From Pseudomonadota bacterium (GTDB taxonomy: Bacteria > Pseudomonadota > Alphaproteobacteria > Acetobacterales > Acetobacteraceae): a stretch of DNA of 43,520 nucleotides. The stretch covers positions 1 through 43,520 of the forward strand of contig JAJZBH010000002.1 of NCBI GenBank assembly GCA_021799015.1, read 5' to 3'. Position 1 is the stretch's first letter, and the number at the start of each line of letters is the position of its first letter. Under the pieces are notes generated by a model. The model worked only from the letters and a program-made list of their open reading frames with translations. It was not told the DNA's origin and did no database searches. The position numbers and the translations under genes were made by a program. Below are positions 1,887 to 39,953 of the stretch, in pieces.

Positions 1887-2260
1887 GCTGCCTCCTTGCC
1901 GGATATGGTCCGGAGCTGTCCCTCAAGCTCCTGCGTCTCAGAGAGAATCGACGCAATCGCCGGCGCGTCGTTCGACGCATTAGCGTTGACGATCCGGACG
2001 TGCAAACCCGCGTAGGCAGCGGACAGCTTCTCGGAAAGCGGGCCTTCGGCGGACCGCGCAAGAGCATCCAGCTGCATGATCAACTGATTGGCTTTCTCGA
2101 TCATCTGGAGTTTCTTTGTGCGGTCGCCTTCCTCGATAGCAAGAGCGGCGCGTCGGAGAAACGTCTGAATTCCGCGCAACCCCCGGACGATCCATGTCAT
2201 ATCCGGCATCTCCGACATCATCGACGTTATCTTGTATGCGCCTGCGATCGACATGGTCAC
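1883..2260 (-). CDS. fliS: Flagellar export chaperone FliS
   Basis: 125 aa helical; directly downstream of fliD; FliS-like GDRTKKLQMIEKANQLIMQLDALA segment; 4-nt overlap with fliD end. Confidence 0.7.
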   Translation of the reverse strand: MTMSIAGAYKITSMMSEMPDMTWIVRGLRGIQTFLRRAALAIEEGDRTKKLQMIEKANQLIMQLDALARSAEGPLSEKLSAAYAGLHVRIVNANASNDAPAIASILSETQELEGQLRTISGKEAA

Positions 2261-3672
2261 CCCCCAGACCCGCTTTTCGTCGTTGTGTTCAAAAGTGCAC
2301 CAAGATAAGCCAACGTGGAATTGGCACCGCTTGTTCCATTGATTGCCGCATTAAACTGATTTTCGATGTTCGTGATCTGCTGGTTGCCGAGGAGCGTCTG
2401 TTGCACGATCTCGGATTTGAGCGACGACACCGTACTGTTCAGATCTGTCGTCGACGCACCGATAAAACCGCTTCCCAGCGCCCCGCTGCCGCTTCCCGAA
2501 TTTGAACCTGTTGTCGAACTCGAACCAATCGCCCCCGAAACCACCTCTTTCACGGCTGCGCCGATCTGTTTGACCAGGCTGTCGACGGCTGTCGGGTTCT
2601 TTTGATACGCAGAGCTGAACTTCGTGGAAGAAAAGCTGATACTCCCGGCAGAGGAAATTGAAAACCCGAGAGACCCTGCTGAAATTCCAGATCCCGCTGC
2701 GTCGGCTATGCTCGCGATCAGCTCTTGCTTGAGCTGTTGCACCTGGACATTCCCAAGCAATGGTCCAGCGGATGCCACCTTACTGCCGCTGGCAGACGAG
2801 GATGTTTTGCCCGGTGTGTATGCGATCTCCTTTGATAGCGTCGAGATGGCTGTATTCAGTTGGCTTGTAAACGAGGACAGCGCCGAGGAAAGGCTGTTCG
2901 CGCTTTGGGTGACGTTGACCGTTGCGGAACCCGAAGCCGAAAGGTTGAGGGTTACTCCTTTTACCAGGTCAATGCCAGTATTGGAATTCTCGGTAACTGG
3001 AACGCCATTAACCGAAAACGACGCATTGCGTGCGGATTGCGCCAGCGTAAAGGTCGCACCCGAGCCCGAACCGTACTTGACTCCCGAGAACGCCCCCGAT
3101 CCGGAAAGGCCAAAGGCCTGGCCGGATCCCGCACTTGTGCTCCGGAACACGAGCTTTGCACCGCCGCTCGTCTGCACGACTGACGCAGCAATTCCCTTGT
3201 TCGCTTGGTTAACAGCTGCCGCAACATTCGCGAGCGTATCCTGCGAAGATAAAAGGCCGATTTTCGTTGACGTTCCGTTCGCGAAGCTGAACGTCAGGCC
3301 ACCGGAACCGCTGCCAAGCTTCGCGCTCGCGGACGCATACGTCGCGGAATAGATTTCCTGGCTTTTCGCCAGCTTGATGCCGGACAGATTGTAACTACCA
3401 GCCACTGCGCTCGATGTCACGACCGCCGTCGCACTCTTGTTGGACACGCTGGCGACCATCGGATTGACCGATGTTGGGTCCATGAGAGTGCTCAACGATC
3501 CATTGAGCGACGAAACGGCTCCCTTGATTTTCCCGAGCGCACTGATTTGCGCCTGGTCGGCCTTAATCTGCGATTGTTCGAGCGTGATCGGAGCATCTAT
3601 ACGCTGTTGCGCCTGCCCGATGACCGTCTTGATCTCGGCCGATGAAAACAAGCTGCTGATCGAGGCGCTCAC
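2257..3672 (-). CDS. fliD: Flagellar hook-associated protein 2 / filament cap FliD
   Basis: N-term SSLFSSAEIKTVIGQAQQRIDAPITLEQSQIKADQAQISALGKIKGAVSSLNGSL; Ser/Gly/Thr-rich; C-term coiled coil QTLLGNQQITNIENQFNAA. Confidence 0.85.
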   Translation of the reverse strand: MSASISSLFSSAEIKTVIGQAQQRIDAPITLEQSQIKADQAQISALGKIKGAVSSLNGSLSTLMDPTSVNPMVASVSNKSATAVVTSSAVAGSYNLSGIKLAKSQEIYSATYASASAKLGSGSGGLTFSFANGTSTKIGLLSSQDTLANVAAAVNQANKGIAASVVQTSGGAKLVFRSTSAGSGQAFGLSGSGAFSGVKYGSGSGATFTLAQSARNASFSVNGVPVTENSNTGIDLVKGVTLNLSASGSATVNVTQSANSLSSALSSFTSQLNTAISTLSKEIAYTPGKTSSSASGSKVASAGPLLGNVQVQQLKQELIASIADAAGSGISAGSLGFSISSAGSISFSSTKFSSAYQKNPTAVDSLVKQIGAAVKEVVSGAIGSSSTTGSNSGSGSGALGSGFIGASTTDLNSTVSSLKSEIVQQTLLGNQQITNIENQFNAAINGTSGANSTLAYLGALLNTTTKSGSGG

Positions 3673-3827: not shown

Positions 3828-5309
3828 TCACGGAAGGAGAGACAGGAACGCCTGCTGAAGCGTCGTGCTCGATTTAAGCGCGGCGACACCTGCCTGCGCC
3901 TGGATCTGACTCTGCGTCAGCTGCTGGCTCACAGCAGGGATGTTTGCATCCTGCACGGTCGCCAGCCCGTTCTGGAGGTTAGCGTTTGTGGTCGTGAGGT
4001 TGTTCAGGGTTGCTGTCAGGCGTTGTTGGCTGGCCCCAAGTTGCCCTCCAAGGTTATTCAACCCCTCGATCGCGTACTTGATCACGTTGATCGCGCTGTT
4101 GGCGCCTGCAGTCGTGGAAACGTTAATGCTGGACAGGGACAGCAGGGTCGACTGCGATTTCAGGCCGATATCGGTGGCATTTCCAACACTGAATGACTGG
4201 TCCGACTGGAAGGATACCAGTCCTTGCGCAACCAGCGTTTTGCCGGTGGTGGCCGCGGTAAACGTTCCGGCGGTGGTTGTGCCACCGTACGTTCCCGCAC
4301 CTTTTCCACTACCCACGGTAAAGCTCCCGTTCGCAACACCGGTCACAGAAATATTCTGGCCCTGCGACTGTGTCAGAACAATCGATTTGGAGTTGGCGCT
4401 ACCTTGTTGGACTGCGGTGATGCCCGTCTTAGCGGTGTCGGCGTTGATCGCGTTAACAAGCCCGGAAACACCGGTCGCGGAAATTGTTACCGTGTTCGTG
4501 GGCGAAGCGGAAGTGCCGTTGCCGAGCGTGAAATTGAATGCCGAGCCCGAACCTCCTTTGACTTTAAGCGCAAGCTGTGTCGTTGCTTGGGCGGAGACAT
4601 TTGTCTGGTTTGTCAGCGCGTTGACCGCAGCAGCGATGCTTGAGGCTGACTCACTTGCCGTTACTGCGACTTTGGCGGTGCCGTTCGAACCGTTAATTGC
4701 CAGCGATCCGGCGGTAAATGCGGATCCGGTCTTCGTTACCGCGGCAGATCCGCCATACAACGTGGCGGAAGCGCTAAGCGTGTTCATACCAATGCTGTTC
4801 GCCTGGGTGCTGCCGATCGAAAGGCTGAGTGTCTGCCCTTCGTTGGCCCCAATCTGAAACTGCACACCGCTGAACGTACCATCGAGCAGATTGATGTTGT
4901 TGAACTGCGTCTGCTGCGCGATCGTCGTAATCTGGCTCGTGAGCTGCGAAACAACGCTCTGCAGGCTTTGAGCTTCCTGTGGCGTCTGGGTGCCGTTCGC
5001 CGCCTGGACCGCCATGGAGTTCAGCTTCTGGGCGACGTCGAGCTGCTGCTGCACCGCACCTTGTGCTGTCTGCAGCAATGAAATGCCCTCATTGGCGTTC
5101 GAAGATGCTTGCGTGACGCCGTTTACCTGACTTGTAAAGCCCTGAGCTTCGATGAAGCCCGCCGGATTATCCGCCGGCGAATTGATCGACAGCCCCGTTG
5201 AAAGCTGGGTCTCATAGGTGTTGTTGGCCGACTGGGCCGCGGCAATACCGTTGAGCGCCTGAAGCGCTCCAAAATTCGACAGTATGGAGCCGGTTGCGCC
5301 TGACATCAT
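3828..5309 (-). CDS. fliC: Flagellin
   Basis: N-term MMSGATGSILSNFGALQALNGIAAAQSANNTYETQLSTGLSINSPADNPAGF (flagellin D0/D1) and C-term QQRLTATLNNLTTTNANLQNGLATVQDANIPAVSQQLTQSQIQAQAGVAALKSSTTLQQAFLSLLP. Start chosen at the MMSG site with RBS CAGGAGA rather than the longer ORF start at 5357. Confidence 0.92.
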   Translation of the reverse strand: MMSGATGSILSNFGALQALNGIAAAQSANNTYETQLSTGLSINSPADNPAGFIEAQGFTSQVNGVTQASSNANEGISLLQTAQGAVQQQLDVAQKLNSMAVQAANGTQTPQEAQSLQSVVSQLTSQITTIAQQTQFNNINLLDGTFSGVQFQIGANEGQTLSLSIGSTQANSIGMNTLSASATLYGGSAAVTKTGSAFTAGSLAINGSNGTAKVAVTASESASSIAAAVNALTNQTNVSAQATTQLALKVKGGSGSAFNFTLGNGTSASPTNTVTISATGVSGLVNAINADTAKTGITAVQQGSANSKSIVLTQSQGQNISVTGVANGSFTVGSGKGAGTYGGTTTAGTFTAATTGKTLVAQGLVSFQSDQSFSVGNATDIGLKSQSTLLSLSSINVSTTAGANSAINVIKYAIEGLNNLGGQLGASQQRLTATLNNLTTTNANLQNGLATVQDANIPAVSQQLTQSQIQAQAGVAALKSSTTLQQAFLSLLP

Positions 5310-5341
5310 GTTCTCCTGAGTTCTGGGGAAAAACACGCCGC

Positions 5342-5354
5342 ACGCCTCCGGCGT
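5342..5354 (-). repeat. Inverted repeat in flagellin 5' leader
   Basis: ACGCC-TCC-GGCGT perfect 5-bp stem about 33 nt upstream of the flagellin start. Confidence 0.45.
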
Positions 5355-5406
5355 CACGGTCGTGTCCTATATTCGAAACCGACCCGAAGAGATTTCAGGA
5401 AGCGCC

Positions 5407-5422: not shown

Positions 5423-5425
5423 AAT

Positions 5426-7093: not shown

Positions 7094-7094
7094 C

Positions 7095-7996: not shown

Positions 7997-8002
7997 AGCA
8001 CA

Positions 8003-9498: not shown

Positions 9499-9503
9499 CG
9501 ACG

Positions 9504-10850: not shown

Positions 10851-10860
10851 ACTGGTGATC

Positions 10861-13972: not shown

Positions 13973-13988
13973 GTGCGAATTCACCTGA

Positions 13989-22992: not shown

Positions 22993-23035
22993 CGCCCACA
23001 GCACCGAGAACTCGGTTGCGCCCAGGAGGTTCAGC

Positions 23036-23725
23036 ATGACCAATCTTTCTCTCAACGGATCCCTTGCGAGCATCGCACCGACGGCCAGCAGCCAGGCACC
23101 GCAGGTCAGTCAATCCTCATCCACGGGATCGTCGTCCGGACTCACCCAAGCCGACTTCATCAAGCTGATCGTTGCCCAGATGCAGAACCAGGACCCGACA
23201 CAGCCGATGAATCCGCAAAACCTGGCGACAGAATTCTCGAATCTGGCTACTGTCAACGGTATTGACACTCTTGATAACAAGGTTTCGCAGATCCAGTCGG
23301 GCGCTGCCGCGGCCCAGCTTGCACAGGCCGCGAATCTCGTCGGCAAGACCGTCGCGGTCTCCGGCGACAGCCTGACGACCAATGGCTCCGGCACCGCAAT
23401 CGGCGCCTTTTCGCTGACCGGGCCGGCGACAACCGCAATCGTCTCAATCATTGACCCGGCCACCGGCAACGTCGTTGGCCATGTAGGCCTCTCGAATCTC
23501 CCGAGCGGAATCAACAACTTCTCCTGGACAGGGGGAACGCCCAGCAAGACGTATTCCTATCAGGTCTCGGCAACGGATGCAGCAGGTAATCCCGTGCCGG
23601 CCGCAACCTACGCGTCAGGAATCGTCAACGCGGTTAATCTTTCTGGCAGCGCGCCCACCATATCGCTGTCCGGACAATCAAGCCCTGTTTCTCTTTCCAA
23701 AGTCGCAAGCATCATCGGAGGCTGA
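23036..23725 (+). CDS. flgD: Flagellar hook capping protein FlgD
   Basis: LTQADFIKLIVAQMQNQDPTQPMNPQNLATEFSNLATVNGIDTLDNKV. Confidence 0.93.
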   Translation: MTNLSLNGSLASIAPTASSQAPQVSQSSSTGSSSGLTQADFIKLIVAQMQNQDPTQPMNPQNLATEFSNLATVNGIDTLDNKVSQIQSGAAAAQLAQAANLVGKTVAVSGDSLTTNGSGTAIGAFSLTGPATTAIVSIIDPATGNVVGHVGLSNLPSGINNFSWTGGTPSKTYSYQVSATDAAGNPVPAATYASGIVNAVNLSGSAPTISLSGQSSPVSLSKVASIIGG

Positions 23726-23728
23726 AGA

Positions 23729-24961: not shown

Positions 24962-24966
24962 CCGTC

Positions 24967-25707
24967 ATGGGATTTGGCGGACTCTACACTTCGATGTCGG
25001 GCCTCGAAACCGCGATGCAGCGTTTGGACACAACTGCCGAAAATTTGGCGAACGTGGACACCCAAGGTTATGCATCGGCACAGACCGATGCGCTAAGCCT
25101 TCCTTACGTCGGCGCAAGGCCTCTCCCTGGCGCCGACGTGATGTCTCTCGGCGAAAAGGCTGATACCCAAAAAGGCCCCCTGCAGCGGACTGGTGGTGCG
25201 TTCGACGTCGCGGTCGAAGGCGGCTGGTTAGTGGTCCAGGGCCCCGGCGGAAAACCCGCCTTGACCCGCTCTGGTCAACTTGCGTTGGGCGGCGATGGTG
25301 TTCTGGTAACGGCCAACGGCAACCCTCTCCTTAACTCAAACGGCAGCCCCGTCAGCCTGCCCGCCCTCAAAGACCTAACCATTTCAGAGTCCGGCCAGAT
25401 ATCGGGTGTGCCCGATACCTCTGCTTCCAACACACCCCAGGTTTTTGCCCAATTGCTGATAGCACAGACCCCTGCCACAGGTGTAACGCCGATCGGCAAC
25501 TCTCTTTATGCACTTCCTGCTGGGGCAACACCCACTCCCGCAGTCAAGGCATCGGTTCGCCAAGGCTATCTGGAAGGGAGCAACGTCGACCCGGTACGGT
25601 CGATGATGGATCTCATCGATGTCTCGAGAGGTTTCCAGTTGCAGACCCAACTTGTGGCCCAGACAACGAAAGACAGCTCGCAACTCGACCAGGTTCTGCT
25701 CGCCTGA
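24967..25707 (+). CDS. flgF: Flagellar basal-body rod protein FlgF
   Basis: MGFGGLYTSMSGLETAMQRLDTTAENLANVDTQGYA...GSNVDPVRSMMDLIDVSRGFQLQTQLV; precedes flgG. Confidence 0.88.
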   Translation: MGFGGLYTSMSGLETAMQRLDTTAENLANVDTQGYASAQTDALSLPYVGARPLPGADVMSLGEKADTQKGPLQRTGGAFDVAVEGGWLVVQGPGGKPALTRSGQLALGGDGVLVTANGNPLLNSNGSPVSLPALKDLTISESGQISGVPDTSASNTPQVFAQLLIAQTPATGVTPIGNSLYALPAGATPTPAVKASVRQGYLEGSNVDPVRSMMDLIDVSRGFQLQTQLVAQTTKDSSQLDQVLLA

Positions 25708-25735
25708 GCTGACCTGAAAACGCAGGAGATCGACC

Positions 25736-26530
25736 ATGCTGCCAGCCCTGTCCGTGACCGCAACCGGGCTCAATGCCGAGCAGGTAGAACTGGACGCCAT
25801 CTCGAACAATCTGGCCAACCTGAACACCACTGGCTTTAAAAGTTCGATGCCGGTGTTCGAGACGCTTGTTTACCAGCAGCAAATCCAGCCGGGCGCCGCC
25901 TCCAGCGGAAATACTCTCTACCCCTCGGGGTATGATCTTGGCACCGGCGTTCGTGTCGCAGGCACCGTTCCCGTGCTAACACAGGGAAACCTGCAGCAAA
26001 CAAACAATCCGCTTGACCTCGCAATCGAAGGCCAGGGCTATTTTCAAGTTCTGCAACCGAGTGGCCAGATCGCCTACACGAGAGACGGTGCTTTCCAGGT
26101 CAACCAGAATGGCCAGCTGGTGACGGCCGACGGCTACCAGGTTCTTCCGAACATTACAATCCCGCCAAACGCGACCAGCGTAACAATAGCCCAGGACGGC
26201 ACAATCTCGGTGACGACACCCGGCGCGAACAACGCGACCCAGATCGGGCAAATCCAGCTGGCGAATTTCGTTAATCCCCAAGGGCTGCAGCCAGTCGGGA
26301 ACAACCTCTTTCTGCAAACAAACGCAAGCGGAGCGGCCATCACCGGTAACCCCCAGGCAAATGGCCTTGGCGGTGTCTACCAAGGCTATCTTGAGCAATC
26401 AAACACGAACGTTGTGGAATCGATGGTGGACCTGATCAGTGCCGAACGGGCGTACCAGCTTGGTACAAACGTCGCGTCCGATGCCGGGCAGACCCTGTCC
26501 CAGTTGTCACAGATGGTTGCTAACGCGTGA
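25736..26530 (+). CDS. flgG: Flagellar distal rod protein FlgG
   Basis: LDAISNNLANLNTTGFKSSMPVFETLVYQQQIQPGAASS...YLEQSNTNVVESMVDLISAERAYQLGT. Confidence 0.96.
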   Translation: MLPALSVTATGLNAEQVELDAISNNLANLNTTGFKSSMPVFETLVYQQQIQPGAASSGNTLYPSGYDLGTGVRVAGTVPVLTQGNLQQTNNPLDLAIEGQGYFQVLQPSGQIAYTRDGAFQVNQNGQLVTADGYQVLPNITIPPNATSVTIAQDGTISVTTPGANNATQIGQIQLANFVNPQGLQPVGNNLFLQTNASGAAITGNPQANGLGGVYQGYLEQSNTNVVESMVDLISAERAYQLGTNVASDAGQTLSQLSQMVANA

Positions 26531-26667
26531 TTGAATCAGCTCCGCGTTGTGGAATCGATGTTTGACCTGAACAGCAGCAAGCCACTCACGTCTTGGACAC
26601 TGATGTTGAAGCGTGGGACGTGGAAGCATTTCGGCCAGAAGTTACATTCTGGCGCAAGCTGGCTGCT

Positions 26668-27372
26668 ATGATGACGGAGCAGACGCCGTGGCAAGGGGTA
26701 GCCCTCATAATGCTATGCGGCCTTCTGACCGGATGTGCCACAACTGCACCCGGAAAACTCTACTTCGTGAAGCCCACTGCGTTTCCGGTTTCCGTTCAGC
26801 AAACACCCGATTCCCAAAGCGGATCCATTTTTCCGCCGGATACCACGGGTTCGCTGTACGCCAATCAGCGCAACTGGGCCGTCGGTGATATCGTCACCAT
26901 CGATGTCACCCTGAACACTACTGCCCAGGACACAGACAGCGGTGCTCTGACAAAAAGCTCGTCAGTCAATGATTCGGTTTCAGCCTTCCTCGGTGTACCT
27001 CTTCAGTTCGGTTCCTTGCACGGCAGCCCATTCCAACCAACGTTCAATCTCGGTAACAAACAGGCGTTCAGCGGCAGCGGAGCAACAAGCGGATCCAATA
27101 CGGTAACGACAGAGATTGCCGCCGTCGTAACCAAGATCGAGCCTAATGGTATTCTGGCTCTTGCCGGTCGGACCAATGTCAACATCAACGGAAACGTGAC
27201 CGGGGTAGACGTCAGCGGCTTCGCCCGCCCTCAGGATATTGGAGCAAACAACACCTTGAATTCTGCCCAACTCGCCGATGCTAACGTCCAATATGTTGGG
27301 ATCGGGGCCATCAACTCATCGCATCATGTCCCATGGCTAGAAAGCGCACTTTCGAGATACTCACCATTCTGA
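26668..27372 (+). CDS. flgH: Flagellar L-ring lipoprotein FlgH
   Basis: Lipobox LLTGC in MMTEQTPWQGVALIMLCGLLTGCATTAPG; GSLYANQRNWAVGDIVTIDV; start trimmed from ORF start 26593. Confidence 0.92.
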   Translation: MMTEQTPWQGVALIMLCGLLTGCATTAPGKLYFVKPTAFPVSVQQTPDSQSGSIFPPDTTGSLYANQRNWAVGDIVTIDVTLNTTAQDTDSGALTKSSSVNDSVSAFLGVPLQFGSLHGSPFQPTFNLGNKQAFSGSGATSGSNTVTTEIAAVVTKIEPNGILALAGRTNVNINGNVTGVDVSGFARPQDIGANNTLNSAQLADANVQYVGIGAINSSHHVPWLESALSRYSPF

Positions 27373-28454
27373 TAGCTGCCGCTGTCTCCGCAACTGCGCC
27401 ACCCGCACTGGGTGACCAGGTGCGGGATCTCGTAACCGTTGCCGGGGCGCCCAGTAACCAACTGGTAGGATACGGACTCGTCGTCGGATTACCCGGAACC
27501 GGCGACCAGACAACCCAGATTCCCTATACCCAGCAGGCGATAACAAACATGTTGTCCCATGAAGGAATTACCCTACCGGCCACCTCCTTCATGCAACCGT
27601 ACGACGTCGCCTCGGTCATGGTCACCGCGACCGTACCGCCGTATGCGGAACCTGGCGCCGACCTCAATGTTACGGTCTCAGCGATCGGCAATGCAACGTC
27701 GCTCGCCGGTGGCGTCCTTCTCCCTACGCCCCTCAAGGGAGGTAACGGCCTTGTATACGCCCAAGCCCAAGGCCCCTTGCTCGTGAGTGGATTCGCGGCC
27801 AGTGCCGCCGGATCATCGGTGAGAGCCAATACGCCTACGGTGGGGCGCATTCCCGATGGAGCCGTTATGTCAAGGGCCATTCCGACGAGCTCGATCCTGC
27901 CGGACGGAGAGAGTCATCTGCTCCTGCGTCAACCAAGCTACGGCAATGCCGCGCGCATCGCCTCTGCGATCAACCGGTCAGTTGGCGCGGGAACCGCTTA
28001 TGCAGCCTCCCCTGATGAAATCGACCTGAGTAATGCGGGTAGCCTGGACCCGGTCGAGTTCATGGCTCGCGTTCTCAGGGTCAGCGTAACGCCCAGGAAA
28101 GCAATTCCGACTGTCGTTGTCGATGCTCAATCCGGAACCATCGTGATGGGAGCGGGCGTCCGGCTTGGCCCTGCTGTCGTCTCGCACGGAAACCTGACCG
28201 TCACCATCCAGGCATATAATGCCGTTAGTCAGCCCAATCCGTTTAGCGGTGGACGAACAGTTGGCGTCCAGAATGCCCAAATCTCTGCCCGGCAAAGCAA
28301 GGGTGGAAAGGTCGTGACACTTCCACACGCGGTTACGCTGGCCGAAGTCGCTGCAGCTCTCAACCGAATCGGGGCGAGCCCCAGCGATCTGATCGCCATA
28401 GTAGAAGCCCTCGAGTCGGCAGGCGCGCTCAAAGCCGATCTGAAGGTGATCTGA
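27333..28454 (+). CDS. flgI: Flagellar P-ring protein FlgI
   Basis: Signal peptide, then DQVRDLVTVAGAPSNQLVGYGLVVGLPGTGDQTTQIPYTQQAITNMLSHEGITLP; 40-nt overlap with flgH end. Confidence 0.96.
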   Translation: MARKRTFEILTILIAAAVSATAPPALGDQVRDLVTVAGAPSNQLVGYGLVVGLPGTGDQTTQIPYTQQAITNMLSHEGITLPATSFMQPYDVASVMVTATVPPYAEPGADLNVTVSAIGNATSLAGGVLLPTPLKGGNGLVYAQAQGPLLVSGFAASAAGSSVRANTPTVGRIPDGAVMSRAIPTSSILPDGESHLLLRQPSYGNAARIASAINRSVGAGTAYAASPDEIDLSNAGSLDPVEFMARVLRVSVTPRKAIPTVVVDAQSGTIVMGAGVRLGPAVVSHGNLTVTIQAYNAVSQPNPFSGGRTVGVQNAQISARQSKGGKVVTLPHAVTLAEVAAALNRIGASPSDLIAIVEALESAGALKADLKVI

Positions 28455-29308
28455 TGCTCGTTCACGCCCCCGCCTCTCCTGGCAGCTCTGGAGTCAACGG
28501 TGTATCGGTCGCCGCGCAGGCAGAAAAGCTCATCGCAATGCTATGGGAACAGGTGCTTTCGGGCATGACAGCAACGGCGCTACCCAGCAGCGCGCTAGGC
28601 ACCGGCTCGAACGTGTACGATGGCATTGCCCTGCATGCTGTCGCAAGCTCGGTCTTCAGCCAAACGGATGGAGGATTGCGTCATGACATCGTTGCCCAGC
28701 TTACGGAAGCAAATCCGTCTGCAGGGCAAAATTCGCGACCGCTCGATAGTCCATCTCTGGCCGGATCGTCGCTTGAAGCCCTCCGAACCCTTGCCAATGT
28801 TAAGGGCAGCCCCGGAATTCAGGGAAGCGCCATGGTCAAAGCTTCAACCATCCTCGACCGTGCAATCGCGTTTGCCCAAAAAGTATGGCCCGACTTGCAA
28901 CAAGCGGCTCTAAAGCTCGACGTACCTCCTGTCGGCCTGCTCGCGCAGACCGCGCTGGAAACCGGTTGGGGAAGCGCCATCCCGGGTAACAACCTCTTCG
29001 GCATAAAAGCTGTGAACGGCCAGGCATCGGTATCACTTCCGACAAAGGAAATGGTCGAGGGGAGCCTCATACCGGCGACGGCGTCGTTCGCGACCTATCC
29101 ATCGATTTCATCGGCGGTTGGCCACCTCACATCGTTACTCGAAACACGATTTCGCGATGTACTCGGCGCCAGTTCCGTTGAACAGTTTGCCGCGGGACTG
29201 GCCCGCGGTGGATATGCAACAGACGACGCCTACGCACAAAAAATTATTGATATCGCACGGTCGCCAATCATGGATCAGGTGCTTCAAAGTTTAGGAATTA
29301 GCTCATGA
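28454..29308 (+). CDS. flgJ: FlgJ, two-domain: rod-binding plus peptidoglycan hydrolase (glucosaminidase)
   Basis: N-terminal rod-binding AAQAEKLIAMLWEQVLSGMTATA; C-terminal VPPVGLLAQTALETGWGSAIPGNNLFGIKAV GH73-like domain. Confidence 0.88.
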   Translation: MLVHAPASPGSSGVNGVSVAAQAEKLIAMLWEQVLSGMTATALPSSALGTGSNVYDGIALHAVASSVFSQTDGGLRHDIVAQLTEANPSAGQNSRPLDSPSLAGSSLEALRTLANVKGSPGIQGSAMVKASTILDRAIAFAQKVWPDLQQAALKLDVPPVGLLAQTALETGWGSAIPGNNLFGIKAVNGQASVSLPTKEMVEGSLIPATASFATYPSISSAVGHLTSLLETRFRDVLGASSVEQFAAGLARGGYATDDAYAQKIIDIARSPIMDQVLQSLGISS

Positions 29309-31242
29309 GCGGTCTAACCGGCGCAATGTTCACCGCGCTCTCGGGTCTTGACGCCTTCTCGAAAGGCACCGAGACCGTTAGTAACAACGTCGCCAACCAG
29401 GCAACCAGCGGCTACGCCGTCGAGACCCTTGCGCCCCAAACCGTCGGCAACTCTTCGTCCGGGGCAGGTAGCGGAGTATTGGATCCGGCGGCCGTCCGGC
29501 GCGCCGCCGACGGCTTCGCGGCGGCGCGTGTCTATGCAGCGACCGCCACAAGCCAAGGGGCTCAAAGCCTTGCCTCTGCGCTGTCCACAATCGATCAGGC
29601 CTTCACCGGTAACGGAAACATCCATAGTACTGCGAGCACCTTTTTCGCCGACCTGTCCACGCTCGCCTCGGAACCGACGAATGCCGCGCAAGCCAGCACA
29701 GTGATCGCTGATGCCCAGACGCTGGTCAGTGCATTCCAAAGCGCCGCTGGAAGCCTGAACACCCAATTTGCAACAATATCCAATTCACTCCAGCAGCAGG
29801 TTGCAGACGCCAACAAGTTACTTGGACAGGTCGCAGCCATCAACAAATCGCTCCAGGCGTCACCGAACAGCAACACTCTCCTGGATCAGCAACAAGCCAC
29901 CCTCACGGCACTCGCGAAGTACGTATCGATTTCGACCGTTCCGCTGTCGAACGGAGCAGTCGAGGTTACCACTGGTGGTACCGTTCTCGTCGACCAAAGC
30001 GGAGCCCAGTTGCTGAGTATTACACAGTCAACGCCATCAAGTCGCCCCGTCGTCACCGCCGGGGCTGACAAGGTGCCCGTAAACCTCGGAAGCACCAGCG
30101 GATCCCTTGGTGGATCATTGGCCGGTTTCACGGCGACTTCAAACGCATTAGCGTCCCTCAACTGGTTCGCAGGAGCACTAACTGGGCTCGTGAACCAAGC
30201 GCAGGCCGAAGGCCTGAACGGCTCTGGTAAACAAGGTGCTCCCCTCTTTTTGATTCCCGCTCCTACGGTTACACCATCCCCGACGAACACGGGATCAGCC
30301 ACGCTGGGTGTCACGATAACAAACGCGCCCCAGTTGCCGCCGAATGGCCAAGGCTACACACTCACGTTCGGGCCCGGCGGCTGGACGGCCACCACACCGA
30401 ACACAAACCAGACTTACAGTCTTGGCGCCGGGCCAACCCTGACACTGAACGGCATGAGTATCGCGGTAACCGGCACGCCGAAGCCAGGCGACAGTTTTCA
30501 GATCAACCCCACTCCGGGGGCCGCAGCCGGATTGGCCCTCACATCAACGAATCCGGCGGTGCTCGCGGTTGCAGACCCGTACGCGGTAACGTCAGGCACC
30601 ATTTCCCCAAGCGGGGCGGTGATAAACAATAATGCCGGGACCGTGACAGAAACAAGCGACACTGTTCTTGCTAACCCAACCGCGGGCGCAGCCGTTGTCC
30701 CCGGTTCGTACTTCGGCCAATCCCTGGTCATGACCTTTACGTCGCCCTCCGCGTACAAGATCACAACAGCAGGGGGAGCTACGGTCTCAAGTGGAACGTG
30801 GAGCGGTGGAACCGGCGTCGCAATTGCATATCCGTCAGGCTCGAAAGCCGGTGGCGAATACTGGCAAGTCAATCTGAGCGGAACACCCGCCGCGGGTGAT
30901 GTTGTTTCACTGACGCCCGGCGGCCTGAACAGCGGATCCAACGCGTCCCGCATGGCACAGTTGTGGGACGCTTCGAATGCGGCTCTTCCGGGCGGCTCGC
31001 TACAGGGATCCATTCTATCGATCATCGGCTTCAACGGCGCACAATCCGCCGCTGCAAAAACCATGCACTCAAACAGCGCCAATAACCTGCAGACAGCCCA
31101 GAATTCGCTTGCCGCAATCGCCGGCGTCAACCCTGATCAGCAGGCAACCCTCCTCTTGCAATATCAGCAAGCCTATGCCGCCGCGGCCAAAGTTATTGCA
31201 ACAGCCGCGACAATGTTCAACTCACTCCTGCAGGCTGTTTAA
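29305..31242 (+). CDS. flgK: Flagellar hook-associated protein 1 FlgK
   Basis: MSGLTGAMFTALSGLDAFSKGTETVSNNVANQATSGYAVE...GVNPDQQATLLLQYQQAYAAAAKVIATAATMFNSLLQAV. Confidence 0.94.
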   Translation: MSGLTGAMFTALSGLDAFSKGTETVSNNVANQATSGYAVETLAPQTVGNSSSGAGSGVLDPAAVRRAADGFAAARVYAATATSQGAQSLASALSTIDQAFTGNGNIHSTASTFFADLSTLASEPTNAAQASTVIADAQTLVSAFQSAAGSLNTQFATISNSLQQQVADANKLLGQVAAINKSLQASPNSNTLLDQQQATLTALAKYVSISTVPLSNGAVEVTTGGTVLVDQSGAQLLSITQSTPSSRPVVTAGADKVPVNLGSTSGSLGGSLAGFTATSNALASLNWFAGALTGLVNQAQAEGLNGSGKQGAPLFLIPAPTVTPSPTNTGSATLGVTITNAPQLPPNGQGYTLTFGPGGWTATTPNTNQTYSLGAGPTLTLNGMSIAVTGTPKPGDSFQINPTPGAAAGLALTSTNPAVLAVADPYAVTSGTISPSGAVINNNAGTVTETSDTVLANPTAGAAVVPGSYFGQSLVMTFTSPSAYKITTAGGATVSSGTWSGGTGVAIAYPSGSKAGGEYWQVNLSGTPAAGDVVSLTPGGLNSGSNASRMAQLWDASNAALPGGSLQGSILSIIGFNGAQSAAAKTMHSNSANNLQTAQNSLAAIAGVNPDQQATLLLQYQQAYAAAAKVIATAATMFNSLLQAV

Positions 31243-31253
31243 AGGAACGTTCG

Positions 31254-32471
31254 ATGGAATCAACTTTCTATACCAACTCTGCCGCAGCGTTCACAACGCA
31301 GGAAACACAGCTCCAGCAGCTTCAATCCGAACTGGCTTCCGGAAAAGCCGTGAACTCCGCTGGTGCCGACGCAACGGCCTATATTGGCGCAGCACAAGAC
31401 AACTCACAAATTCAGCAATTGGCAGCCGAACAGAATAGCCAGACGAACATACAGGCGACCCTCCAGACGGGAACGTCGACGTTGGGTCAAGCAACGACGC
31501 TTCTCGACCAGCTCCAGAGCATCGCACTTCAGGCAATCAACGCGACCACATCCGGTCTCAATTACCAGGCTCTCTCCGAACAGGCCGGACAGATAGGACA
31601 GCAGCTGCTCGCATTTGCCAACAGCCAGGACCCGCAAGGAAATTTTGTCTTTTCTGGGACCGCCAAGGGGACGGAACCCTTCAGTCAGAACAGTTCCGGA
31701 TCGGTCTCATATAATGGGAACGAGGGAGTTTCGAGTGTTGAAATCTCGCCTGGAGTCACGGTCAATTCTGCGTTGAACGGAGCCGTCTTTATGGACGGCC
31801 CGAGCGGCAATGGATTTGCGTCGGTCAGCGCCGGAACGACCAACACGGGAACAGCAACTCTGGTTGCGACAGGGGTATCGAACCAAGCCGCTGCAGGCGC
31901 ATTTCAAACCGGCAATCTTGCCATTACCGTCTCATTTTCATCATCTGGCGGAACGGAAAGTTACGTAGCCACTCAAGGCGGCATAAAAATCGGTGGGGGA
32001 CCCGTAACCACGTCAACTAACAGTGCAATGCTGAATCTTGACGGAATTCAGTTCAAACTGTCCGGCGCCCCCAATGTAGGCGACACCTTTGTTATCGCTC
32101 CCTCACGTCCCCAATCAATCTTCTCGCTTGTGTCCGGCATTCAATCTGCACTGTCATCGCCGGGATCGACCTCAGCTCAGATGGCCCAGACACGTCAAAC
32201 GTTGGAAAATGCACTTGGCGGCATCGTGCAATATCAGAACCGATTCTCAGGCGCCAGCGCAAAAGCGGGCGTGATACTGAAGTCTATCACCCAGTCTGGG
32301 GCAGCGGACACTACACTCAGCACGGCCGATCAGACAAATGCAGCCGCATTAGTCGGAGCAAATATCCCTCAGACGCTGACGCAAATCGAACAGCAGACCG
32401 CCGCGCTTCAGGATTCCCTCAAAGCTTTCAGCTCGGTCCAACAACTTTCGCTCTTTTCGTTCATCGCCTGA
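31254..32471 (+). CDS. flgL: Flagellar hook-associated protein 3 FlgL
   Basis: QLQQLQSELASGKAVNSAGADATAYIGAAQD; flagellin-like N- and C-terminal coiled coils; follows flgK. Confidence 0.85.
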   Translation: MESTFYTNSAAAFTTQETQLQQLQSELASGKAVNSAGADATAYIGAAQDNSQIQQLAAEQNSQTNIQATLQTGTSTLGQATTLLDQLQSIALQAINATTSGLNYQALSEQAGQIGQQLLAFANSQDPQGNFVFSGTAKGTEPFSQNSSGSVSYNGNEGVSSVEISPGVTVNSALNGAVFMDGPSGNGFASVSAGTTNTGTATLVATGVSNQAAAGAFQTGNLAITVSFSSSGGTESYVATQGGIKIGGGPVTTSTNSAMLNLDGIQFKLSGAPNVGDTFVIAPSRPQSIFSLVSGIQSALSSPGSTSAQMAQTRQTLENALGGIVQYQNRFSGASAKAGVILKSITQSGAADTTLSTADQTNAAALVGANIPQTLTQIEQQTAALQDSLKAFSSVQQLSLFSFIA

Positions 32472-32506
32472 TCCAAAGGCCATCGAGCTAACATAACAGA
32501 GGTTTC

Positions 32507-35500
32507 ATGAGCAACGGCAAAACGGCGATCATCATTGCCGGATATTATAGAAGCGGCACGTCGGCTTTGAGTGGGAGCCTGAATGATCTTGGTATCACCA
32601 TCCATGGCGATGCCGACGCCAACGAACACAATCCCAGGGGCTTTTTCGAGTCAACCGACCTTATCCGTTTCGATATGCGCGTGTTCGAGTTTCTCGAGAT
32701 GCCGTGGGCAGATATTGGCCACACCCCTCGGGACTGGTTCAGGCGCCCGGGCGTCAGCCTCTATGTATCACAACTATCCGAACACTTGGCCCCCAAATTC
32801 AAGAATGATTCGCTGGTTGCGGTTAAACACCCCCACATATGCCGCCTTCTTCCGGTTTACGCCGAAGCTGCAAAAAGTCTTGGATACGCAACCGTTGTTC
32901 TTCATACACACCGCAGCCCGTACGAAATCGCGTCCAGTCAGGCAAAGAAGAATGGCCTTAGCCGCGCGCACGCCCTGTTACTCTGGGCCAGTTACATTAC
33001 CGAAGCAGAAAGACACTCGCGTCTCTTCCCGCGCACATGGGTTTTCTACGAGGATCTTCTCGCAGACCCGACTGCGACAGTTCACGAGGCTCTCGATTTG
33101 CTGGGTATTACCCCCCCCAATTCCGTGCCCGTGGGATTCGTAACCAGGGCTTTGCGCCGCTCGGCCGGGGTTGATGGAGTAGATCTTCATCCTGCGGTCG
33201 GCGATCTCGTGGCGGGAATCGCCCGCGCAATCGAGGACAAAAACTCCAATCCTGACACGTGGGATCATTTCAGCCGGAAGGTTGAGGAAATGGCCCGGTT
33301 CCTTAAGGAGATGGGCAAAAGTTCCAACCGCTCTGCGCGTGGGGTTGGCGAAATGGTGAGCTTGGCACAAGCGATCGCGGCACAGCAAGCCACCGTCGGC
33401 AACACCGCAACTCATGCGGTTCGGCCAGCCGAGCGAGGAGACGAGGCAGAAAGAAACCGGATACGCCGCCGGATAGAAGCGGAAGGGTTGGCAGGCGGTG
33501 GACCGGTAACCGTAATCATTGTCGTTCAGCCCGAGGTGGCGACAGAGCAGGTCGTCCGAACCGTGAACAGCCTGCGGAACGGGTGGCTCATGCCCATGTC
33601 AATTTGCATTTACGCCGTATCTGAAGCCGCGGATTCAAGTTTTGGACTCGGTGTTTTCGAGCGCTTCTTTACGACTGCCGACGCCATGGAAGCCGAGCTG
33701 TACCGGGCGATGTCTAACGTCGAGACAGCTTACGTGGCCGCGATTGCCGCAGGTGACCTCGTTGAACCCGATGCAATAGCCCGACTCGCTCTTTCCACGC
33801 TGGATCGGCCCGCCATGATTTACACCGACGAAATTGTGTCCGCCGGAGAAAGCCACGTTATTCGGGCAAAGCCGAGCATGGATATCAACCGGCTACGGGA
33901 GAGTTGCTTTGTAGGGGATTGGGTCTGGTATTCGGTTGACACGCTGCGACATATCGGCGGCTTTGATCACAGTCTGGCTGGGGCCGAGGAATATGATGTC
34001 CAGTTGAGAATCGCAGAAATCGCCGCACGAATTGTACGCCTGCCCGAGGCGCTCTTCGTCCGAGGGCATCATACACGTCGCGACGCCACGCCCATCGAGA
34101 CGAGCATGCAATCGGCGATGAAAGCCATCGGCGCGCATCTTGCGCGGTGCAGAATCGCAGCCCGAGTGGCAGAGTCCGAGATCGGCATTCCAGGGCTTTT
34201 CGCGCTGGTTTATGACGGCGCCGAAGCACAACAAATCCTTCCCTTGACGATCATGTTGTGCGTCGAAGGCCGAACCCTACGGCAGGTACTGGATGCAACA
34301 AATAGACTTGTCCCCATACTCGGCCCCAACGACAACCTTGTCTTTACCGTCGCCGACCAGGACCAACTCGATCGGGCTGTCGTAGAGTTTCTCCGCTCGG
34401 CCGAAGAAGCGGTGGTACACGAACATCCCAACATCCGGGTATGCCGCCTTGTCGGGCCAATGGGAGCGCGGATCCAGTCAGTTCGAACCAGCCAGCCTGG
34501 CCATGCTGTGCTCGTGGTGGACCCTGCAGGCCACCCCGAACGCGATGACGCGCCCACGACTCTGTTGGCAATGGTGCACTCCCTCCCTGACGCCGCACTT
34601 GTGTCTGCGCGCACGTTCTGGACCGAAGAGAACGGTGCGACTCAAATGTTGGGGCCTCTACTGTTCGGAGCAGCCATGCGGATCGGAGCAAACAGGGATG
34701 GCAAAAACCCGGGGCCCGGGGGATGGTTGGCCGCAACGCACGCCGTGGATGGGGTTGACGGACCGATGGTCATGATCCATCCGGACGCTCCACCCCTGAA
34801 TGGGGAAGCCACCTCGTGGACCGAAATCTGCAACAGCGTTGGCCATACACAAGCCCGCCGGCGGCTGCGGCTGTGGACCCCTCGAGTGTCTGTCGAAGTT
34901 CCGCGGACTTACGCAAGCGAGAAAAATCACGAGCCGGCCGCAGCTCTAACGCTGCCTTACCGGCCGGACAGTCACCATCCTTCCATGTCCATGATCGGCG
35001 ATCCACTGCTTCTTGAGGGGCGGTTCGGCCTGATCGACACGGAAGGGAGCGTTTTGCTTTCCGCTGCCGGGCGATTAGAGGATGGCCGGATTATCGACAT
35101 GCTCCGGAATGCTCGACTGGACGCCGGTGTGTGCGCCTCGTTTTCGCCTGATCCGATTGACTATGCTTCTGCCGGCCGAGCGATCGCGCAGGGACGCCGA
35201 TGGATCCGTGTCAATCCACGCTATGAACCGGTGCTTTCTGGTTCGGAATCCCGTTTCCCGTTCGAAGCGGTCTGGACCGAACCGCCGCCGCCTGAAACCA
35301 GGTCGCTTGTTCAGAGCGCTTATTGCCATTACGCAACGTCGCAAGGAATCGCTAATGTGCTCCGAACGCTCGGCGCCAGAAAGGTACAGACCCTCCAACC
35401 CAAGCTCCGAAAGTCGCTTTGGCTTGACGGGCACGTAGTCGCGGCGACTACCAAGCCGTCCGTAATGTGGATCGACGAGGGCACCGATGTTCCTTGGCTA

Positions 35501-35941
35501 CCATCAGTCATCGCGGAAACCAAAGAGGCGGTCGACTGGATCGTGATCAGTGCAGCCGATCTGCCTCTTCCGGGCTACGTCGCGCAGGTGAAACCTGTAG
35601 TCCTTGAGGAGCAGTGGCTTGGTCTGTTCCGGCAGTTCAGCCCACGTTTTTTCATCCGTCCGACGCCGGGATCAAAGTGGCGAGATGATTATACCCTGAT
35701 GATGGCCGCCGCGGCAGGATGCATCCTGCTGGCTGGGCGCGAAAGCCCCGCGCGCGACGGGCTTCCGGTCCGCAATTACCTTGGATCAGACAGCCCCGAG
35801 CGCTGGCGCTCGGCGATTGAACGCCATGTACGGGAGTCGGCCCTTCCCTCTCCATCCTCCCTCGACAACCTATGGTTCGATACCAGGGATTACGACTGGC
35901 TGGTTAAGGCACCCGATTTCGTCGTGCGAAAGGTTGCCTGA
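32507..35941 (+). CDS. Multidomain sulfotransferase-glycosyltransferase fusion (1144 aa), candidate flagellar modification enzyme
   Basis: N-terminal sulfotransferase PAPS-binding loop AIIIAGYYRSGTSALSGSL, then VVLHTHRSPYEIASSQAKKNGLSRAHALLLWASYITEAERHSRLFPRTWVFYEDLLADP. Middle GT2-like region PAMIYTDEIVSAGESHVIRAKPSMDINRLRES...HIGGFDHSLAGAEEYDVQLRIAEIAARIVRLPEALFVRGHH. C-terminal GT4-like region FFIRPTPGSKWRDDYTLMMAAAAGCILLAG. Confidence 0.8.
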   Translation: MSNGKTAIIIAGYYRSGTSALSGSLNDLGITIHGDADANEHNPRGFFESTDLIRFDMRVFEFLEMPWADIGHTPRDWFRRPGVSLYVSQLSEHLAPKFKNDSLVAVKHPHICRLLPVYAEAAKSLGYATVVLHTHRSPYEIASSQAKKNGLSRAHALLLWASYITEAERHSRLFPRTWVFYEDLLADPTATVHEALDLLGITPPNSVPVGFVTRALRRSAGVDGVDLHPAVGDLVAGIARAIEDKNSNPDTWDHFSRKVEEMARFLKEMGKSSNRSARGVGEMVSLAQAIAAQQATVGNTATHAVRPAERGDEAERNRIRRRIEAEGLAGGGPVTVIIVVQPEVATEQVVRTVNSLRNGWLMPMSICIYAVSEAADSSFGLGVFERFFTTADAMEAELYRAMSNVETAYVAAIAAGDLVEPDAIARLALSTLDRPAMIYTDEIVSAGESHVIRAKPSMDINRLRESCFVGDWVWYSVDTLRHIGGFDHSLAGAEEYDVQLRIAEIAARIVRLPEALFVRGHHTRRDATPIETSMQSAMKAIGAHLARCRIAARVAESEIGIPGLFALVYDGAEAQQILPLTIMLCVEGRTLRQVLDATNRLVPILGPNDNLVFTVADQDQLDRAVVEFLRSAEEAVVHEHPNIRVCRLVGPMGARIQSVRTSQPGHAVLVVDPAGHPERDDAPTTLLAMVHSLPDAALVSARTFWTEENGATQMLGPLLFGAAMRIGANRDGKNPGPGGWLAATHAVDGVDGPMVMIHPDAPPLNGEATSWTEICNSVGHTQARRRLRLWTPRVSVEVPRTYASEKNHEPAAALTLPYRPDSHHPSMSMIGDPLLLEGRFGLIDTEGSVLLSAAGRLEDGRIIDMLRNARLDAGVCASFSPDPIDYASAGRAIAQGRRWIRVNPRYEPVLSGSESRFPFEAVWTEPPPPETRSLVQSAYCHYATSQGIANVLRTLGARKVQTLQPKLRKSLWLDGHVVAATTKPSVMWIDEGTDVPWLPSVIAETKEAVDWIVISAADLPLPGYVAQVKPVVLEEQWLGLFRQFSPRFFIRPTPGSKWRDDYTLMMAAAAGCILLAGRESPARDGLPVRNYLGSDSPERWRSAIERHVRESALPSPSSLDNLWFDTRDYDWLVKAPDFVVRKVA

Positions 35942-36636
35942 TGCGCAGTCTGGCCTGCGTTATGGTCGGACTTGTCCTTGGCGCTGCCTCCCCTGCACTC
36001 ACCTACGCAACGACTCATGAGCATGTCGCCGCCGTCACGAAAGCGATCCGATCCCAGCTTCACATGAGCACCGCGCAGTTCCATGCCGGGGGCGCGCGGA
36101 TGATGCCGCAATGCTTGGCACCACTGGCGGTGTCATGGCTCTCCGGTACCGATGAGTACAAAACCGTTGCGGTCAAGTGTTCGGAGCCCCCATGGACGCT
36201 TTACGTCGGTTTGTCGGTACCCACGGTTGTTCGCGTCCCCGTCATAATTCACGCCGTTCCCGGCGGGCACACCGTTCCACCGCGGGATGTCGCGTACAAG
36301 ACTCTCCCAATCGACGATTTGAATGGTCAGGCCATAAGTCCCTTTCAAATTAACGAAGGAGTCGCCGCCCGCATCACTTTGTTGAAGGGCACCCCGTTAA
36401 CGGAAAGTGATGTCGACATCCCTGTCGCTGTTCGTGTCGGGGAACCGGTGTCGCTGGTGTCGAATACTCAGGGAATAACGGTAGAAACTGCAGGATCAGC
36501 CCTGCAGAACGGCGGTTACGGGCAAAAAATTGTCGTACAGAATGACGAAACGCATCGACGGGTTATGGCAATTCTCGCTCCATCGGCACCTTCACTCAAA
36601 GGCGTCTATGCGATCCCGAACGCCCCCAGCAACTAG
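35941..36636 (+). CDS. flgA: Flagellar P-ring assembly chaperone FlgA (SAF domain)
   Basis: Signal peptide; VRVPVIIHAVPGGHTVPPRDVAYKTLPID...INEGVAARITLLKGTPLTESDVDIPVAVRVGEPVSLVSNTQGITVETAGSALQNGGYGQKIVVQN is FlgA-like. Confidence 0.88.
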   Translation: MRSLACVMVGLVLGAASPALTYATTHEHVAAVTKAIRSQLHMSTAQFHAGGARMMPQCLAPLAVSWLSGTDEYKTVAVKCSEPPWTLYVGLSVPTVVRVPVIIHAVPGGHTVPPRDVAYKTLPIDDLNGQAISPFQINEGVAARITLLKGTPLTESDVDIPVAVRVGEPVSLVSNTQGITVETAGSALQNGGYGQKIVVQNDETHRRVMAILAPSAPSLKGVYAIPNAPSN

Positions 36637-36780: not shown

Positions 36781-38412
36781 TCATGGCTGCGCGGGCAGGC
36801 GGATCACAAAACGCGCACCGATTATAGCACCGGCAGCATTGCGGCGATTTTCTGCCATGATCCGGCCATTATGCGCTTCAATAATCTGTCGGGAAATCGA
36901 CAGGCCCAGCCCGGAATGGCTGCCGAAACCTTCCCCCTCGGGCCGTTCAGAGTAAAACCGGTCAAAGATGCGATCAAGTTTGGCGTCCGGAATGCCTGGC
37001 CCCTCATCCTCAACTGCAATTTCGATCAGGCTGCCGGTCGTCCGCCCGCGAAGCCATATTTTGCCTGCGTTCGGGCTAAAGGAGATGGCGTTGGTAATCA
37101 GGTTTCGTAGAACCTGCACCAACCGGCCTTCGGCACCGCGAACGCTCAGCCCGGTTTCGGGAGCATCAACGATGAGATGGGGCTCGTCAGGTTTGCGGGT
37201 CGCTTCATGGATGTCTGCAAGAGCCGCCAGTATGGGCGCCAAGTCAAGATTCTCCATCGCGGTCCGCGACATTTCTGCATCTAAACGCGACGAGTCGCTG
37301 ATATCGGAGATCAGCCGGTCCAGTCGGCGAACGTCCTGACCAATAACGTCGAGGAGGCGCGAGGCACGTAAGGGGTCGTCCATGCGGGAAATCGTCTCGA
37401 TCGCGGAGCGAATCGAGGATAGTGGATTCTTGATCTCGTGAGCGACATCGGCAGCAAAGCGCTCAATAGCATCCATGCGCGCCCAGAGCGCCTGAGCGGA
37501 ATCCTGTAGAGCACGAGCCAGGGCGCCAATCTCATCCTCTCGTGAAACAATGCTGACCGGAAGCGGTTCAGCGAGGGCGGCATGTCCTTCCCGCAGGCGG
37601 GTGGCCGATTGTGCGAGGCGAAGCAGCGGTGTTGCAATTGTGCGGGCGAGGTAAAACGAAAGCAACACCGTCAGCGCAATTGCAATACCGAACAAACCGA
37701 GAATTGAAACTCGAACGGCAAAGACCGCACGATCGACCTCGTCAGCGCGGCGCGTTAGCAGAACTACGCCCACCTCTCGATCTGACCGCAGAATCGGCTC
37801 GGCGACGGTCACCAGAAGGCGCCCGTCGCGCGCACGGCGAACAAAAGGCGGGGCTTCGTGTTTCGCCGTCGTCTCAGTGGTCAAGCGCAACGTCTCACGA
37901 ACGTCCGGCTCCCACGCATGCCTGTCGTTTTCAGCAGATTTGCCGCCAGTTTCTCCGGGAGGCGGGCGAAAGGCAAGAAATTGGTCGTACAGCATACTAA
38001 CCGCGCGGGCGAATAAACCACGCGGCTCAGCAGGCGGTAATTTTTCGGTTATGATGCTTCCTCCCGGTCCTTCCCGCGTCCGAGAGTTTGCAATAACCTG
38101 CCCGTCAGGTCCGTAGATCAATGCCTGAGCGTTCGGCGTCGGCTCGATCAGTCGATACAAAAGCGGTCGCGCCAGGTCAGGATTCAACACTGGCTGGTTA
38201 GCGGCATTGGTCTGGACTGCGGATTGGGCCAAAGCGCCCGCATAAATTCGCGCCTGTTCCCGAAGTGCTGTCACTTCCGCCGTCATCAATCCACGCTGAT
38301 ATTGATCCAGATAAAGCAGCGCGGCCACGATCAGCGCAATCGGCAAGACATTGACCAGTAGAATGCGCCCCAGCAGCGGCGAAACCCGCCGGCGCCGGAG
38401 AAGTCCGCTCAT
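36781..38412 (-). CDS. chvG: ChvG/ExoS-type sensor histidine kinase
   Basis: N-terminal TM/stimulus-sensing region, HAMP, H-box FAADVAHEIKNPLSSIRSAIETI, N-box NLITNAISFSP, G-box DEGPGIPDAKLDRIFDRFYSERP. Confidence 0.87.
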   Translation of the reverse strand: MSGLLRRRRVSPLLGRILLVNVLPIALIVAALLYLDQYQRGLMTAEVTALREQARIYAGALAQSAVQTNAANQPVLNPDLARPLLYRLIEPTPNAQALIYGPDGQVIANSRTREGPGGSIITEKLPPAEPRGLFARAVSMLYDQFLAFRPPPGETGGKSAENDRHAWEPDVRETLRLTTETTAKHEAPPFVRRARDGRLLVTVAEPILRSDREVGVVLLTRRADEVDRAVFAVRVSILGLFGIAIALTVLLSFYLARTIATPLLRLAQSATRLREGHAALAEPLPVSIVSREDEIGALARALQDSAQALWARMDAIERFAADVAHEIKNPLSSIRSAIETISRMDDPLRASRLLDVIGQDVRRLDRLISDISDSSRLDAEMSRTAMENLDLAPILAALADIHEATRKPDEPHLIVDAPETGLSVRGAEGRLVQVLRNLITNAISFSPNAGKIWLRGRTTGSLIEIAVEDEGPGIPDAKLDRIFDRFYSERPEGEGFGSHSGLGLSISRQIIEAHNGRIMAENRRNAAGAIIGARFVIRLPAQP

Positions 38413-39113
38413 CAGGCTTCCTTGTACCGATAGCCGATGCCGTAAAGCGTCTCGATCTGATCGAACTGCTCATCACAGGTACGGAATTTCTTGCGTAGCC
38501 GCTTAACGTGGCTGTCGATCGTTCGATCGTCGACATAGACGTTTTCGCCGTATGCCGCATCGATCAACTGATCGCGCGACTTGACCATCCCGGGGCGGGC
38601 AGCCAGCGCCTTTACCAACAGAAACTCGGTGACCGTGAGTTGAATATCCTGGCCTTTCCACAGGCATTGGTGCTTGGTTTCATCAAGGGTAAGATTTCCT
38701 CGCACGATAACGCCCGACGGGCCGGCTCCCGAACCTTCTGCCCGACTTGCTTCATTGCGGCGCAACAGGGCTCGAATACGCTCGAGTAACAGGCGCTGGC
38801 TGAACGGCTTGGTAATATAGTCGTCGGCGCCAAGCCGCAGGCCCATCAGTTCATCTATCTCGTCATCCTTACTGGTTAGGAAAATGACCGGCATTGCTGA
38901 GCGCGCGCGAAGGCGCTGCAGCAACTCCATCCCGTCCATGCGCGGCATCTTGATGTCGAGAACCGCAAGATCTGCCGGTTTGGCCGTCAGCCCCTGTAAG
39001 GCCGATTCGCCGTCCGTGTACGTACGGACCTGAAATCCTTCCTGCTCCAGCGTCATCTGGACGCTTTCGAGAATATTGCGGTCATCATCGACCAGGGCAA
39101 TTGTGTGTTTCAT
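38412..39113 (-). CDS. chvI: ChvI-type OmpR-family response regulator
   Basis: [69 protein letters not shown] plus winged helix; paired with chvG. Start trimmed to MKHT. Confidence 0.9.
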
Positions 39114-39179
39114 GGTGCTTATTTTGACGCATATCACATGGCGAGAAATTCGCCGAGACGTGACTGGAACGGAAGGACA

Positions 39180-39953
39180 ATGCAAGTGGTGGGTGACGAC
39201 AGCAAGGATAAGACGGCGTCGAATGGAGCCAGGGACGCAAACCGCGAAGCGATTGCGCTCCTGCGAGGATGCCGAATGGGCAGTCTTGCGGTAGTCGACA
39301 AGGGAGTTCCGAGGATTGCGTTGGTGACACCCGCGGTCGCCCTTGATGGCGCTCCCGTGATTTTGCTGTCACGACTTTCAGCCCATACCAGAGCGATTGA
39401 CCGCAATCCGCATTGCGCTTTGATGCTGGTGGGACCACTTCCCGACAAAGAGCAAAATCCGCAGACCGCCCCGCGGCTGTCCCTCGTCGGCCAAGCAATA
39501 CGCGCTGATGACCCATGTCTTCGGGCCCGTTATCTCTCAATCCATCCATATGCCACAGAATATATCGATTTCGCCGATTTCGGACTGTTTCGGATCACGA
39601 TTACCGAGGCCCGGTACGTGGGCGGCTTCGGAAGGGCCATGACTCTCAAGCCAGATCAACTGGCACCAGAACCCTGTATCGTTGCAGCCTTCGATGCGGC
39701 CAGCGCGGCGCTGATTGCAACGCTCAACTCTACGGCCGTGAAAGACATTGACCGCATTGCCGCGATGGGTCACGTTGAAGTCTCCGGCTGGCGAATCGTG
39801 TCGATCGACCCAGATGGCATTGATCTCGCACGGGCGGAAACCGTGCTGCGGACAAATTTCATGCATCGAATTCGAGACCCAGCCCAGGTTGCAAATGAAA
39901 TCAGCAGGCTCGCAGCAATAAGTGGTCGCACGAGCCGACCCGTATCAGTCTAG
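39180..39953 (+). CDS. HugZ-like / pyridoxamine 5'-phosphate oxidase family protein
   Basis: [64 protein letters not shown]...; C-terminal DUF2470-like domain; start trimmed to MQVVGDD. Confidence 0.82.

Follow-up and report, generated by a model that had tools for sequence, protein, structure and literature searches.

We find that the 1144-aa sulfotransferase-glycosyltransferase (ST-GT) protein encoded between flgL and flgA in the window (the whole 43,520-nucleotide stretch of DNA that was analysed) belongs to an enzyme family that is specific, linked to the flagellum and as yet uncharacterised. On balance it is probably a flagellum-dedicated soluble glyco-sulfotransferase that would place a sulfated glycan on a flagellar protein, with the flagellin FliC as the likeliest recipient; its activity, order of steps, sugar and substrate are what we infer here. 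The gene occupies 32507-35941 (+), starts with ATG and contains no internal stop codon, exactly as the first-pass annotation had described it, and a likely ribosome binding site (AGAGG, 32498..32502, +) lies just ahead of it. It forms part of a tight gene run, flgK-flgL-ST-GT-flgA, in a window that is for the most part a flagellar cluster. Upstream, flgL (hook-filament junction protein; 31254..32471, +; TIGR02550, E 4e-47) is separated from it by 35 bp, and downstream its TGA stop and the ATG start of flgA (P-ring chaperone; 35941..36636, +; TIGR03170, E 5e-23) share bases in the sequence TGATG. A 98% identical copy, with the same frame and neighbours, is present in another metagenome-assembled genome (MAG), 'Acidiphilium sp. 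isolate clean440', and the window's genome is a MAG related to Acidiphilium. A chance open reading frame or an assembly artefact is ruled out by copies of 98, 90 and 71% identity and by purifying selection. Adjoining the flagellar cluster, and convergent to flgA, is a histidine kinase and response regulator pair (36781-39185, -). The cluster itself (21588-36636 and 2257-16109) appears foreign within its genus: its FlgG shares 84% identity with that of Allgaiera (Rhodobacterales) and 74% with that of an Acetobacteraceae MAG, against only 47-51% with those of most same-genus genomes, and among 12 same-genus genomes FlgL has a relative in just one other.

To place the gene in a broader context we gathered 32 distinct homologues from Acetobacteraceae and Rhodobacterales (31-98% identity) and compared the proteins encoded around each with those of the window, counting for each flank those contigs on which that flank is visible. 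flgL was found directly upstream of the ST-GT gene in 30/30 visible flanks and flgA downstream in 31/31. Indeed, every visible homologue sits between flgL and flgA, so that the homologues do not lie mainly away from flagellar genes, which bears out the flagellar link originally proposed for this gene and rules out a random insertion into the operon. The flgL-ST-GT-flgA position is common to two orders that otherwise arrange their flagellar genes differently, namely flhA..motA-motB..fliI-flgL-ST-GT-flgA-fliC-fliD in Acetobacteraceae and flgE..flgK-flgL-ST-GT-flgA-fliL-fliP..fliD-fliC in Rhodobacterales (Allgaiera, Thioclava, Defluviimonas). One Acetobacteraceae genome (G156) carries two ST-GT genes (L069 and L073), each within its own flgL-flgA-fliC-fliD cluster. 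Several relatives have two FlgA genes, and one homologue (L059, on G312:C81) is interrupted close to its 3′ end by an in-frame TAA that is either a sequencing error or the mark of a recent pseudogene. A scan of species-representative genomes revealed 9 relatives; within the order, 24 of the 397 genomes scanned contained a full-length ST-GT gene. All 24 of these carriers fall within the 329 genomes that contain FlgA, while none of the 68 FlgA-less genomes carries the gene. As a control, we inspected 15 neighbourhoods of single-domain or other-fusion relatives and found no flagellar cluster, only one isolated weak motB-like match; we therefore assign the flagellar link to the full-length family. 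The divergence of ST-GT proteins also tracks that of flgL, flgA, fliD and fliC (r of 0.96, 0.97, 0.93 and 0.80, respectively), values that reflect a gene cluster inherited together and do not show that the products interact physically. Plasmid and phage collections contained partial relatives only; Cereibacter sphaeroides plasmids, for example, encode sulfotransferases that share 34-37% identity with the N-terminal domain. The whole protein is covered by no model in Pfam or NCBIfam, and direct PDB sequence searches with the whole protein returned no match.

The N-terminal domain (residues 1-270; 32507..33316, +) has a complete PAPS sulfotransferase signature, in agreement with the original assignment, and would by this token be expected to transfer sulfate. 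In the window protein this signature consists of the 5′-PSB loop GYYRSGTS (residues 12-19), E48, KHPH (107-110) and the 3′-PB residues R136, P138 and S144. Across the ST-GT family and its stand-alone relatives, G12, R15, G17, T18, S19, E48, K107, R136, P138 and S144 are invariant; the loop as a whole (GYYR[ST]GTS) and R136-P138-S144 are invariant or nearly so, and K107 and P109 are conserved, free-standing relatives included. The Pfam model Sulfotransfer_3 matches residues 8-202 of the window protein with an E-value of 2.7e-5 for the domain alone (25.0 bits, just under the curated threshold of 27), and it matches 26 of 29 family members, the best at 1e-7. Similarly, profile-profile comparison of the domain with stand-alone sulfotransferases gave an hhalign probability of 100, and AlphaFold modelled most of residues 1-270 with a pLDDT of about 75-90. 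Profile matches of the domain to solved sulfotransferases in the PDB were weak (E 0.09-1.4), and the best 50 matches of a fold search with the full model were mostly glycosyltransferases (GTs), a sulfotransferase fold not being confirmed among them. As for the sulfate donor, APS kinase, the source of PAPS, is encoded in 27/27 other ST-GT carriers; this lends no specific support, since the gene is common in the family anyway (168 of 200 sampled genomes, 84%). No copy turned up in the MAG of the window itself, which is probably an assembly gap because a contig (C153 of G000, locus L078) ends about 340 bp before cysNC, and we have accordingly dropped this absence as an argument against PAPS use. 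Nor did we see any nucleotide-sugar genes in the window, which counts against the proposed role.

The remainder of the protein resembles glycosyltransferases. Residues 315-775 gave no Pfam match, and it took profile-profile comparison and fold search to detect the GT2 region. These place a first GT2 (GT-A) domain at residues 329-572 (33491..34222, +; hhalign probability 98.8 to strong GT2 domains, with fold search and alignment in agreement) and a second, degenerate one at residues 573-805 (34223..34921, +; probability 94.6). Against GT2-GT2 proteins carrying strong Glycos_transf_2 domains (E 1e-42 to 1e-52), the tandem region aligned with a probability of 99.5 over 423 columns and collinearly across both domains, as compared to 0.3 for a control with the ST-GT C-terminus. 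The full AlphaFold model (mean pLDDT 58, better within domains) found its best PDB matches in the chondroitin polymerase K4CP (Foldseek E 5e-10), LARGE1 and heparosan synthase 2, and the MftF model TIGR03965 matches three members, the best at 2e-8. Thus the GT2-like character assigned earlier holds for what are two tandem domains and not one. For the C-terminus (residues 806-1115; 34922..35851, +), a separate AlphaFold model of residues 760-1144 (mean pLDDT 61, pTM 0.62, confident from about residue 915) matched PimA (Foldseek E 1.2e-5, TM 0.47-0.50) as well as WsaF and GT-B-like UDP-GlcNAc 2-epimerases. With moderate confidence, then, this portion is predicted to have a GT-B fold of GT4 type, as the first-pass annotation had suggested, but the EX7E motif is absent from it; by eye, the family alignment reads DxYxxxxAAAAGC at the place of EX7E...AxG.

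This loss of motifs is not confined to the C-terminus. Where relatives have DHDD, the first GT2 domain of the family reads NAGD (AAGD in the window), with both metal-binding Asp of the DxD lost in all 29 aligned members, and in the second domain NND has become DPA or DAR and, again read by eye, the catalytic Asp is lost too. Canonical GT motifs are therefore replaced family-wide while the sulfotransferase signature is intact, and because of this glycosyl transfer by ST-GT may not occur. The earlier idea that the enzyme builds and caps the glycan is consequently still only a proposal, its GT modules being devoid of canonical catalytic motifs. Taken further, the same pattern might mean that only the sulfotransferase is catalytic and that the three GT modules are a retired docking scaffold for a flagellar protein glycosylated by other, unlinked GTs. 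The sulfotransferase is indeed the most conserved domain, the share of alignment columns with an identity of 95% or more being 24% in it and 17, 9 and 13% in the others. We nevertheless consider this explanation unlikely. The first GT2 domain keeps a dense invariant set (D417, YxDE, KP, GDWVWY, GG and GxEExD, represented in the window by Y-x-DE at 439-442, GDWVWY at 470-475 and GAEEYD at 492-497), which includes carboxylates at the catalytic-base position, and no partner glycosyltransferase has been identified. Moreover, when the other GT2 proteins of the compared loci were scanned by pattern for NAGD-type motifs, none was found, but pairwise alignment does place EAGD at the DxD position of L020, a related GT2 protein; such a variant is therefore not necessarily inactive. 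No part of ST-GT is decaying, given dN/dS values of 0.06-0.35 for each domain across eight pairs. We thus rate GT modules that work with a changed motif set above a binding scaffold for an intact sulfotransferase, though not strongly.

The ST-GT protein has no transmembrane-type segment by sequence hydrophobicity and is predicted to be a cytosolic multidomain protein. PAPS and nucleotide sugars are cytosolic. In Caulobacter, flagellin O-glycosylation takes place in the cytosol, before export, and is carried out by FlmG (PMC7591256). The likeliest substrate in the window is the flagellin encoded by fliC (3828..5357, -; Pfam Flagellin_N/C). The 509-aa product reported in the first-pass annotation was correct, but its span is 3828-5357 with a GTG start; the interval 3828-5309 corresponds to an internal ATG and would yield 493 aa. 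Flagellin is rich in Ser and Thr (25% overall, 30% in the central region). This composition does not decide the substrate, since FlgL (24%) and FliD (28%; the filament cap, annotated at 2257..3672, -, and an alternative substrate) are similar. It is conceivable, therefore, that the same chemistry is directed at FlgL, FliD, hook or another export substrate, for example to gate assembly. The closest fixed neighbour is in fact flgL and not fliC, which lies further from the ST-GT gene in the window and in Rhodobacterales, but fliC and fliD directly follow flgA in most Acetobacteraceae homologue loci, and flagellin is the target of FlmG, the cytosolic glycosyltransferase known from flagellar systems. 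We accordingly regard a substrate other than flagellin as rather improbable.

For modification of flagellin by ST-GT, the following sequence of events may be envisaged. In the cytosol, the GT part would first bind a protein destined for flagellar export, with the Ser/Thr-rich FliC as the likeliest, and a short O-glycan would be attached or extended by the first GT2 module, possibly together with the GT-B module. The N-terminal domain would then move sulfate from PAPS onto that glycan, and the sulfated flagellin would be exported and subsequently assembled. We put forward tentatively the fuller proposition that follows from this scheme, namely a bacterial flagellin bearing a sulfated O-glycan made by a single multidomain enzyme of the flagellar operon, in which GT motifs have been replaced by a new conserved set. 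As a whole, the interpretation originally given to this gene is partly supported.

Two other explanations fare poorly. The domain order of ST-GT is the same as that of ST-GT2-GT2 proteins from other loci, as one might expect of a surface-polysaccharide enzyme sitting by chance in a flagellar operon without a flagellar role, but this is largely refuted, and thus very improbable, given a position kept in 32 homologues, in two orders and in the second flagellar cluster of one genome (L073), and given the absence of ST-GT from FlgA-less genomes. Direct protein sulfation (of Tyr, for example) without a glycan would be in line with weak profile matches to protein-tyrosine sulfotransferase 1 (E about 0.6-1), but is equally hard to credit for a sulfotransferase that is fused to GT domains and many of whose closest sulfotransferase relatives are GT-fused as well.

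Comparison with known systems helps to define what is new about flagellum-dedicated ST-GT. The best fold matches of the model, K4CP, heparosan synthase 2 and LARGE1, resemble it in having tandem glycosyltransferase domains, but they are active glycan polymerases with canonical motifs and no sulfotransferase or GT-B domain. Closer in architecture are ST-GT2-GT2 fusions of other alphaproteobacteria (L116, L117 and L121), in which an N-terminal sulfotransferase precedes two GT2 domains and the GT part is collinear with that of ST-GT. These have canonical GT2 motifs (DHDD, NND), a longer spacer and non-flagellar loci, and no counterpart of the GT-B C-terminus was found in them. The fusion is therefore not unusual in itself, a point on which the first-pass annotation needs correction; its dedication to the flagellum is what is unique, and as far as these tools show the novelty lies in the added GT-B-like domain and the altered GT motifs, fixed in flagellar operons. 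A search of open-access literature, with most subscription papers and all preprints outside its scope, found no sulfated bacterial flagellin or flagellar sulfotransferase. FlmG of Caulobacter is likewise an alphaproteobacterial flagellin modifier that is soluble and cytosolic, as we propose for ST-GT, and has a GT-B-like fold, as predicted for the ST-GT C-terminus, but its architecture is different, with a TPR flagellin-binding domain and no sulfotransferase (PMC7591256). In the ST-GT protein no Pfam match was found to a TPR domain (E up to 10) or to a Maf domain; a search of carriers with PF01973 matched in archaeal controls only, a result that says nothing on bacterial Maf elsewhere. The nearest parallel for the proposed chemistry is provided by the Halobacterium sulfotransferases Agl30 and Agl31, which put sulfate on protein-linked glycans in an organism with a glycosylated motility filament (PMC11980604). 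They differ in that they are separate enzymes without a GT fusion, act on an archaeal N-glycan and serve an unrelated filament (PMC11980604). Sulfation is known on archaeal glycoproteins of cells whose motility filaments are glycosylated; if ST-GT is active, bacterial flagella would join them, and the filament would acquire a surface modification of strongly acidic character.
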